Assembly: GCA_020444265.1 (NCBI GenBank)
Contig: JAHLLH010000001.1
Span: 310,001-374,000, forward strand
Reading direction: 5' to 3'
Source of the DNA: a bacterium
GTDB lineage: Bacteria; Electryoneota; Electryoneia; Electryoneales; Electryoneaceae
DNA length: 64,000 nucleotides
Part shown: in pieces, positions 61,665-63,384 of the stretch
How the letters are laid out: each line of letters opens with the position of its first letter
Position numbering within the stretch: the stretch's first letter is position 1
The notes under the pieces: model-generated
Told to the model about the DNA's origin: nothing
The model's database searches: none
What the model saw: the letters and a program-made list of their open reading frames with translations, nothing else
Program-made: the position numbers and the translations under genes

Positions 61665-61683
61665 CCCATACCCGGAGTTGTTT

Positions 61684-63120
61684 GTGCTTCCCTGGCAGAA
61701 CTGGCATCAACCACCTCGCATCCATTTCATTGGTATTGGCGGCACCGCAATGGTTGCCGGAGCACGTCTTGCGATCGAAAACGGGTGGGAGGTTCGTGGG
61801 AGTGACCAACCTCTCTATCCGCCAACTTCGGATATGGTGAAAGCGCTGGGGGTACCGGTCTACACCGGGTACGCAGCGGAAAACCTTGAGTGGAAGCCAG
61901 ACCTGGTCCTTGTCGGCAATGCACTCAGCCGAGGCAATCCTGAAGTCGAGGAGGTGTTGCGACGGAATATTCCCTACACAAGCCTGCCTGAATGGATGAA
62001 GGAGGTGCTTCTCCGTCAACGGCGACCCGTGGTGATCACCGGTACTCACGGTAAAACAACCACTTCCGCGCTGACCGCTTTCCTGCTCGACAAATGTGGT
62101 CTTGAGCCGGGTTACCTGATTGGCGGGTCGCTGCTCGATTTTCCGGTATCTAGCCGTACGGGACAGACAGGGAAGCCTTTCGTCATCGAAGGCGATGAGT
62201 ACGACACTGCTTTTTTTGATAAGCGAGCAAAGTTCTTCCACTATTTGCCGGAAATTGCCGTGGTTACCTCGATTGAGTTCGACCACGGGGACATCTACGA
62301 TGACATCGATCAGATTGAACGAGCATTCCGGCTCATGCTGCGTCAGATTCCGCCACAAGGGCATCTGATTGCCTGTGCAGATGACCCACGCGCCCTGAGC
62401 TTGACACAGGATGCACCTTGCCCCACAATGACCTATGGCTTCCATCCTGATGCACACTGGCGAGGCGAGTTTAGTGGGTATTCAGCTGGATTTGCAGGAA
62501 TGGTGGTCTATCGAAGCGGAAAACGATTTGCCGAGCTGGCTGTGCCCCTCTCGGGCAAGCATAACCTGCAGAATACGCTTGCAGCGGTTGCTGTTGCAGC
62601 AATTCTTGGTGCAACAGCTTCGGATATTCAAGCAGCCCTGATGCAGTTCAAGGGTGTGAAACGAAGGATGGAGGTCTTCCACCAAGCAAATGGAGTAACC
62701 TTCGTTGATGATTTTGCGCACCACCCGACAGCTATCCGTGAAACCATCTCTGCCGCAAAAATGCGTTGGCCCGGTTCAACCCTGCATGTCCTGATAGAAC
62801 CACGTTCGAATACGATGGTCCGAAAGATTCACACGGAAGAACTTTCGGAAGCGCTAGCGGATGCGGATAGAGTTTACTTGGGACCGATCCACCGGGTGGA
62901 ACGGATTCCCAAGGAAGAACGTTTGGACCGCGAAGCGATCGTCTCCTCGCTGATGCAGGCAGGCGTGGAAGCGGAGGTGCAGGATGAAGTCGGTCCCCTT
63001 GTGGATAGTGTCCTGGAACGAACGAAATCAGGTGATGTCGTTCTGATTCTGTCCAACGGCGCATTCCATGGGATTTATGAGCTGTTTCGCGAGAGAACGG
63101 GTGGGGTGGCTCACTCTTGA
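61684..63120 (+). CDS. mpl: Murein peptide ligase Mpl
   Basis: Ligates recycled L-Ala-gamma-D-Glu-meso-DAP tripeptide to UDP-MurNAc, feeding recycled wall back to synthesis. The 478-aa protein has Mur-ligase architecture: Rossmann-like IHFIGIGGTAMVAGARLA, ATP loop VVITGTHGKTTTSALTAF (about 118-135), the EGDEYDTAFFDKRAKF segment and the C-terminal domain with HHPTAIRETI. The EYDTAFFDKRSK-type motif is specific to Mpl over MurC. GTG 61684 is preferred because GGAG lies 6 nt upstream; a TTG at 61678 abuts that box. Implies meso-DAP peptidoglycan. Confidence 0.9.
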   Translation: MLPWQNWHQPPRIHFIGIGGTAMVAGARLAIENGWEVRGSDQPLYPPTSDMVKALGVPVYTGYAAENLEWKPDLVLVGNALSRGNPEVEEVLRRNIPYTSLPEWMKEVLLRQRRPVVITGTHGKTTTSALTAFLLDKCGLEPGYLIGGSLLDFPVSSRTGQTGKPFVIEGDEYDTAFFDKRAKFFHYLPEIAVVTSIEFDHGDIYDDIDQIERAFRLMLRQIPPQGHLIACADDPRALSLTQDAPCPTMTYGFHPDAHWRGEFSGYSAGFAGMVVYRSGKRFAELAVPLSGKHNLQNTLAAVAVAAILGATASDIQAALMQFKGVKRRMEVFHQANGVTFVDDFAHHPTAIRETISAAKMRWPGSTLHVLIEPRSNTMVRKIHTEELSEALADADRVYLGPIHRVERIPKEERLDREAIVSSLMQAGVEAEVQDEVGPLVDSVLERTKSGDVVLILSNGAFHGIYELFRERTGGVAHS

Positions 63121-63126
63121 CGCATG

Positions 63127-63135
63127 TGTTATATT
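63127..63135 (+). promoter_or_regulatory. Extended -10 promoter for selC
   Basis: TGTTATATT: a TG dinucleotide one base before TATATT, 29 nt before the tRNA 5' end. No good -35 box at 16-18 nt, as is common for extended -10 promoters. Confidence 0.4.
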
Positions 63136-63164
63136 CCAGCGCCTGATTGCGATGCGCAATCTGG

Positions 63165-63257
63165 GGGAGTGGATGTGATCCTGGTGGACACCGCGGCCTT
63201 CAAAGCCGTCCGCGGGGCTTGATCGCCCTGGCTGGATTCGATTTCCAGACGCTCCCG
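63165..63257 (+). tRNA. selC: tRNA-Sec (anticodon TCA)
   Basis: A selenocysteine tRNA that reads in-frame UGA. Acceptor arms GGGAGTG and CGCTCCC pair over 7 bp (including a T-G pair) with a G-A apposition as the eighth position. The D arm is long, about 6 bp with a bulged A and a 4-nt TGGT loop, a tRNA-Sec hallmark. The anticodon arm is GCGGC-CTTCAAA-GCCGT with TCA at 63200-63202. A long variable arm follows (CGGGGC with GCCCTG), then a T arm CTGGA-TTCGATT-TCCAG. The discriminator is G, and CCA is not encoded. A promoter candidate and a strong terminator flank it. Confidence 0.9.
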
Positions 63258-63271
63258 CAACAAGACCTGTC

Positions 63272-63311
63272 AGAAGGCCCTGACCCAGTGGATCAGGGCC
63301 TTCTTCTTTAT
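63272..63311 (+). terminator. Intrinsic terminator of selC
   Basis: A perfect 12-bp stem (63272-63283 with 63293-63304, arms AGAAGGCCCTGA / TCAGGGCCTTCT), a 9-nt loop and TCTTTAT after it. Confidence 0.9.
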
Positions 63312-63384
63312 CTGCACTCCCTGGTCCTCTTGCGGGAGTGTGGTAAGTTTGTACCTTTAAAAGAACAGTCGGATCGGGGGGCGT

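Follow-up and report, generated by a model that had tools for sequence, protein, structure and literature searches.

A selenocysteine tRNA gene in an Electryoneota genome and doubled selenocysteine machinery in related genomes

Background

The bacterial selenocysteine (Sec) tRNA (tRNA-Sec; gene selC; Rfam family RF01852) is the closest described counterpart of the element analyzed here, a tRNA gene in a 64,000-nucleotide stretch of the Electryoneota assembly GCA_020444265.1 (contig JAHLLH010000001.1, positions 310,001 to 374,000 of the forward strand; hereafter the window), which shares with it the anticodon UCA, the discriminator base G73, a 6-bp D-stem with a 4-nucleotide (nt) D-loop, and a long variable arm. 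Bulges in the D-stem (13a) have been reported in Clostridiales and variant acceptor branches in other lineages, in the part of PMC5330540 available to us, and therefore the D-stem bulge and the acceptor variant of the window tRNA are known kinds of deviation.

Two further described situations are comparable to family f6, a group of six related genomes in the same phylum. In Syntrophobacterales and Desulfobacterales, the tRNA-Cys called selC*, together with selB*, provides a second selC-like tRNA and a second SelB per genome, as in f6; however, according to the accessible text of PMC7609411, selC* has U73, an 8/4 fold and Cys charging, whereas both tRNA types found here have G73, and the f6 genomes also have two SelA. 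Likewise, Table 3 of PMC5330540 contains eight bacterial cases of genomes with two candidate tRNA-Sec genes. The section of that paper devoted to them makes no mention of a second SelA or SelB, whereas two distinct tRNA types occur in six of six f6 genomes together with two SelA and two SelB. No case of doubled selA and selB with two tRNA-Sec was met in the available portions of the open-licence literature, including PMC13188914, PMC5029168 and PMC8124441, which is weak evidence of novelty. The interest beyond an ordinary tRNA-Sec lies mainly in these two-set relatives.

The tRNA-Sec gene and its structure

Judging from its sequence and genomic setting, the gene almost certainly makes a working tRNA-Sec, predicted to serve genes that carry an in-frame UGA and a selenocysteine insertion sequence (SECIS), including those for SelD, a peroxiredoxin and a TlpA-like protein. 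Its features are given below, where type b denotes the tRNA group to which it belongs (see the section on the two sets).

63165-63257, + strand: tRNA-Sec gene (selC), 93 nt from G1 to G73; ARAGORN, Rfam RF01852, alignment with 22 relatives, covariation
63200-63202, + strand: anticodon TCA, which pairs with UGA, within the CTTCAAA loop (63198-63204); identical across all 23 aligned type-b tRNAs
63175-63191, + strand: D-arm of 6 bp with 4-nt loop TGGT and bulged A at 63178; fold
63213-63230, + strand: long variable arm with 6-bp stem; fold, covariation
63172-63249, + strand: G8 (63172) facing A (63249), a non-canonical eighth step in an apparent 8/5 acceptor/T branch

The initial annotation, made from the letters alone, had proposed a tRNA-Sec gene with TCA in a CTTCAAA loop, a long D stem with a 4-nt loop, a long variable arm and no encoded CCA, and each of these points was borne out. 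The sole tRNA call of ARAGORN in the window is tRNA-SeC(tca) at 63165-63258, and the sole Rfam match above gathering score is RF01852 at 63165-63256 (model positions 1-91, E 1.8e-9), whose 59.3 bits exceed the gathering score of 47; a covariance score under threshold, which the annotation had named as grounds for rejection, was thus not what was found. The discriminator is G73 at 63257, and CCA is not encoded, because the DNA that follows reads CAACA. The minimum-energy fold (-43.2 kcal/mol) is a cloverleaf in which the acceptor has seven standard pairs and then the G/A step, and the T-stem has 5 bp, so that the acceptor/T branch agrees with 8+5 in length but, with G.A at the eighth step, has 12 standard pairs.

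In an alignment of 23 of the 24 type-b genes (the window and 22 relatives; the gene of genome G015, with an irregular 5' end, was left out), 95.2% of the cells of the cloverleaf are paired and 15 of 29 pairs have changes on both sides, with none of 500 shuffles scoring as high. Five of the six pairs in the variable-arm stem are 98% paired, each with both-side changes, and the sixth is 65% paired. The A opposite G8 is invariant in these 23 tRNAs, and G8 itself is present in at least 90%. The tRNA-Sec of the window is an ordinary one, structurally a bit unusual but of a known sort.

Sec machinery and selenoprotein genes in the window's genome

In the genome that contains the window (4.33 Mb in 19 contigs; 94% complete), selA, selB and selD each gave a single match above the curated cut-off: selA with 541.7 bits vs 267.9 on contig C9, the window's contig, selB with 331.5 bits vs 242.25 on contig C12 (SelB winged-helix domains were found), and selD with 362.4 bits vs 125 on contig C4. 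The three genes are scattered over the genome with no operon, and all lie outside the window, from which they had been reported missing; the genome-wide absence that would have spoken against a Sec system was not observed. Judged by gene content, the Sec pathway is complete in this genome. By analogy with the known bacterial pathway, the tRNA would be charged with serine and converted to Sec-tRNA by SelA using selenophosphate from SelD, and SelB would then deliver the Sec-tRNA to UGA codons with a SECIS hairpin behind them. The expected users include at least SelD, a peroxiredoxin whose C-terminal domain is of the 1-Cys type, and an AhpC/TlpA protein that resembles thioredoxin. The machinery parts themselves, as well as the TGA positions and hairpins described below, are present in the genome sequence.

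A single in-frame TGA, codon 33 of the open frame, interrupts selD; its context reads RCAG[U]ASKL, with the active-site pattern U-x-x-K, which is listed for Sec-containing SelD in the available text of PMC13188914. Among the 19 AhpC-TSA matches, two have a TGA: a peroxiredoxin (Pfam AhpC-TSA and 1-cysPrx_C) with TGA at the peroxidatic site, FTFV[U]PTE, and a TlpA-like redoxin (AhpC/TlpA, thioredoxin-like) with TGA at GYS[U]PAC, giving U-x-x-C. Behind each TGA lies an 8-bp hairpin whose apex is GGT, the distance from UGA to loop being 20, 17 and 17 nt in selD, the peroxiredoxin and the TlpA-like gene, respectively. The bacterial SECIS model, as set out in the accessible part of PMC13188914, calls for G at the first two positions of the loop, in most cases with G or U after it, at 16-37 nt; the three hairpins fit a standard bacterial SECIS within the published limits. 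The recoding of UGA proposed in the initial annotation, which had suggested a search for TGA-interrupted selenoprotein genes with a downstream hairpin, is therefore supported at the level of sequence by three genes with in-frame TGA at catalytic positions.

Among 4528 TGA triplets in 124 kb of the window's genome (both strands, any frame), 5 have, 8-14 nt on, a hairpin with a GGT apex and a stem of 7 bp or more. One of these is the TGA of selD; the other four stand in surroundings that are unlike genes, since two run into a stop within a codon, one does so after two open codons, and one is antisense in a 1042-codon gene. Moreover, in six of six type-b genomes with the FTFVUPTE peroxiredoxin, the stems of its SECIS vary on both sides with the loop GGTC kept (e.g., GACAGC-GGTC-GCTGTC vs GACGGC-GGTC-GCCGTC). 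Across the 39 genomes of the phylum that were sampled, the window's genome included, 33 of 35 over-cut-off selD matches have one TGA. Users in the window's genome were sought among selD, AhpC-TSA and PF00384, and the list of its selenoproteins is for this reason partial. Ordinary gene prediction would cut selenoprotein genes short or break them up here, SelD for example at its 33rd codon, and Sec appears to serve this lineage in making selenophosphate and in peroxide or thiol chemistry.

No selenoprotein gene is claimed inside the window. A read-through scan found 83 TGAs preceded by 60 or more open codons and followed by 40 or more. In a coding-score scan of stretches of the window's own genome, selD was 33rd among the best 40, and because of this low rank the coding score was dropped as evidence. 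The GGT-apex hairpin filter, beyond which lie other kinds of hairpin, gave a single match among the window's TGAs (57440), with a stop right behind it.

Transcription of the tRNA-Sec gene

The flanks of the tRNA gene contain the following features.

61678-63120, + strand: mpl, UDP-N-acetylmuramate:L-alanyl-gamma-D-glutamyl-meso-diaminopimelate ligase; TIGR01081, 405 bits vs cut-off 388.7
63127-63135, + strand: element resembling an extended -10, TGTTATATT, without a -35 at 16-18 nt
63272-63314, + strand: intrinsic terminator with 12-bp stem, 9-nt loop and T-rich tail

A promoter and a terminator belonging to the tRNA gene itself had both been proposed in the initial annotation, and the second is the better supported. 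The terminator, with stem arms at 63272-63283 and 63293-63304, is likely: its score was equalled in 6 of 5000 random 90-nt windows of the same sequence, and when the two strands of the window were scanned at intervals of 30, three places reached such a score, this one included. The stock scan missed it because its loop limit is 8 nt and the loop here has 9. Some terminator-like hairpin lies within 90 nt of 6 of the 19 related type-b loci.

An own promoter is possible. The quality of TGTTATATT was matched by 55 of 20000 random 44-nt windows, a rarity that argues against dependence on mpl; no -35 was seen by eye at 16-18 nt, the stock promoter scan called nothing upstream of the tRNA, and an equally good extended -10 was found in 1 of the 19 related loci. 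Since the element is unproven and not conserved, a tRNA-Sec that has no promoter of its own, is co-transcribed with mpl and is then cut out of the transcript must be taken seriously, even if we consider it the less probable arrangement. It would suit the position of the gene, which begins 44 nt past the mpl stop codon, and the conservation of this order: among the 19 relatives' type-b loci that were checked (23 are known), 17 have the tRNA behind mpl on the same strand, and of the two others one is at a contig edge and one has no mpl within the 2.2 kb examined. On the other hand, the distance from mpl to the tRNA in relatives ranges from tens of bases to about 1.2 kb, and in several of them hundreds of bases separate the mpl match from the tRNA.

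Other readings of the tRNA

The anticodon UCA alone is no proof of Sec. The tRNA might instead be a UGA suppressor, a tryptophan tRNA of a changed genetic code, or a tRNA-Cys resembling selC*, which can bear UCA and can accompany a second SelB (PMC7609411, accessible text). Any of these seems very improbable. G73, the long variable arm and the 6-bp D-stem suit tRNA-Sec, and a tRNA with G73 and a 5-bp T-stem falls outside the definition of selC* (U73 and 8/4 fold); TGA also stands at the ends of genes such as mpl, and selA, which is present, would be unneeded by a Cys-tRNA.

Some observations weigh against a working tRNA-Sec. Its 59.3 bits are below the scores of many relatives (maximum in the phylum 71.1), its departures from the model, namely the D-stem bulge and G.A at the eighth acceptor step, are visible, and formate dehydrogenase, the commonest bacterial Sec user, had to be rejected as a user here, no PF00384 match being present in the window's genome at E 0.001. 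That the gene is a decayed copy left by a lost system, as the low score and the G.A step might suggest, is scarcely credible, given that the facing A is invariant and the extra D-arm nucleotide common to the aligned type-b relatives, and that this is the sole over-cut-off tRNA-Sec in a genome with a TGA-bearing selD.

PF00384 matches at E 1e-30 occur in 20 of the 39 genomes, and in two of these (G032 and G024, relatives from f4 and f8) a match has one TGA; these molybdopterin oxidoreductases (L281 and L282) are possibly Sec-type formate dehydrogenases.

Two sets of tRNA-Sec, SelA and SelB in the phylum

Among the 39 genomes, ARAGORN confirmed 38 tRNA-Sec genes in 32. Of the best matches under the cut-off, one locus each of the window's genome and G004 was submitted to ARAGORN; the former is a tRNA-Ser, and the latter gave no call. 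The alignment divides the tRNA-Sec genes into type a (14 genes) and type b (24 genes), type-a rows being one D-arm nucleotide shorter. Type a occurs in families f2 (7), f5 (1) and f6 (6), and type b in f1 (6, including the window), f3 (1), f4 (8), f6 (6), f7 (1) and f8 (2). Every one of the six f6 genomes carries both types, and the window's genome has type b only.

The proteins show a corresponding pattern. SelA over the cut-off is doubled in eight genomes (the six of f6, G010 of f5 and G015 of f7), and SelB in seven (five of the six f6 genomes, G010 and G015); in the sixth f6 genome, G028, the second SelB is a 161-aa fragment at a contig end. In the SelB tree, a clade of 15 is composed of f2, one copy per f6 genome and one each from f5 and f7 (Shimodaira-Hasegawa-like approximate likelihood ratio test 100; second tree 100/100), and the SelA tree has a clade of 15 from the same genomes (support 100). 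Incomplete sequences were kept out of the trees, namely those of G028 (the SelB fragment), G013 and G034 (SelB) and G003 and G035 (SelA). Thus type-a tRNA, SelA-a and SelB-a travel together in f2, families with type b only are without SelA-a and SelB-a in these trees, and f6 has both. Overall, a single family carries set a alone, and four carry set b alone. In G010 and G015 both types of SelA and of SelB were found, yet only one tRNA type (a in G010, b in G015); the other may be missing sequence, because these genomes are 79 and 77% complete.

Contamination is unlikely as the cause of the double sets: the f6 genome G011, which is 95% complete in 20 contigs with 1% contamination, has these parts on contigs between 137 and 636 kb long, and its type-b tRNA is downstream of mpl. 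Each f6 genome has a single over-cut-off selD match, so that selD would be shared by both sets. In a SelB tree with nine sequences from outside the phylum, the base among the a group, the b groups and the outsiders was without resolution, and for this reason duplication and transfer are not separable as the origin of the a set.

Two selD loci stand apart. A second SelD match in G010 (L067, C475:5328-6254) lies in a frame of 738 codons that has Cys and lacks a TGA, and is perhaps of the oxidoreductase/SelD fusion type (cf. family TIGR04369). G030 has a TGA-bearing selD, yet neither selB (at E 1e-45) nor selA (at E 1e-60) was matched there, which perhaps reflects missing sequence (88% complete).

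SECIS apex signals and a possible separation of the two sets

It is conceivable, albeit rather doubtful, that two insulated Sec systems, told apart by the tRNA D-arm and the SECIS apex, both run in at least six genomes on one SelD with the selenoproteins split between them. Under this hypothesis, the b set would combine a bulged D-arm with apex GGU or GGA and the a set an unbulged D-arm with apex GAU or AGUU, and the window's tRNA would belong to b. If two sets did operate side by side with no cross-talk, nature would have supplied two mutually orthogonal Sec systems in one cell, of use in engineering a pair of UGA contexts and in studying the evolution of SelA and SelB specificity.

Several observations are consistent with such a rule. 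The selD apex is GGT or GGA in 11 of 11 genes examined from f1, f3, f4 and f8 (20 such selD matches); among these genomes, the hairpin of G008 has only two pairs in an unbroken run, and G013 gave no tRNA-Sec. There are 14 TGA-bearing peroxiredoxins in the phylum at E 1e-25, and six, all FTFVUPTE, have GGTC. In f2, where only type a occurs, the apex is GAT in six genes (five of five members of a new candidate family and one TlpA-like gene) and AGTT in five of five selD genes examined (seven in total).

Other observations oppose it or are ambiguous. The f6 selD, which directly precedes the type-a tRNA in six of six genomes, is b-like, with GGCGGAGC in six of six and the hairpin in the minimum-energy fold in five of six. 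The four TGA-bearing f6 peroxiredoxins have neither apex signal, and the f5 selD has a GAT apex by minimum energy, but its strongest uninterrupted hairpin has a GGA apex. Of the other peroxiredoxins, that of G018 has a GGC apex and that of G014 no hairpin, and in those of G034 and G038 the TGA site was not located. A clean two-code SECIS rule is not established; insulation is kept as a hypothesis because f6, with both sets, does not sort cleanly and because the apices GAT and AGTT, too, place a G within the two leading loop positions, in keeping with the general model.

Further observations

The candidate new selenoprotein family of f2 has the pattern LSFYCPG[TGA]GGGTPxSxI in five genes from four genomes, G020 having two of them, at the following positions.

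L028:1986, + strand: family member
L258:6619, + strand: family member
L175:135, - strand: family member
L206:4631, + strand: family member
L259:2911, - strand: family member

A GAT-apex hairpin lies 23 nt on, with a stem that varies on both sides and uninterrupted stems of 4, 4, 6, 8 and 8. For the single member compared with Pfam, no domain match covers the TGA site. Also in f2, a SelD with a TGA forms the C-terminal part of a fusion that begins with a ferredoxin-thioredoxin reductase catalytic domain (L206:2921-4240, + strand; FeThRed_B, E 1.8e-12 in the one protein scanned), and N-terminal sequence similar to this fusion is present in five of five f2 selD loci.

Near selA of the window's genome, L066:3724-6852 (+ strand) encodes a long, secreted-looking protein, presumably subtilisin-like, with a C-terminal NPFNP..GLYLAVLQAG domain that we take to resemble those of type IX secretion cargo.
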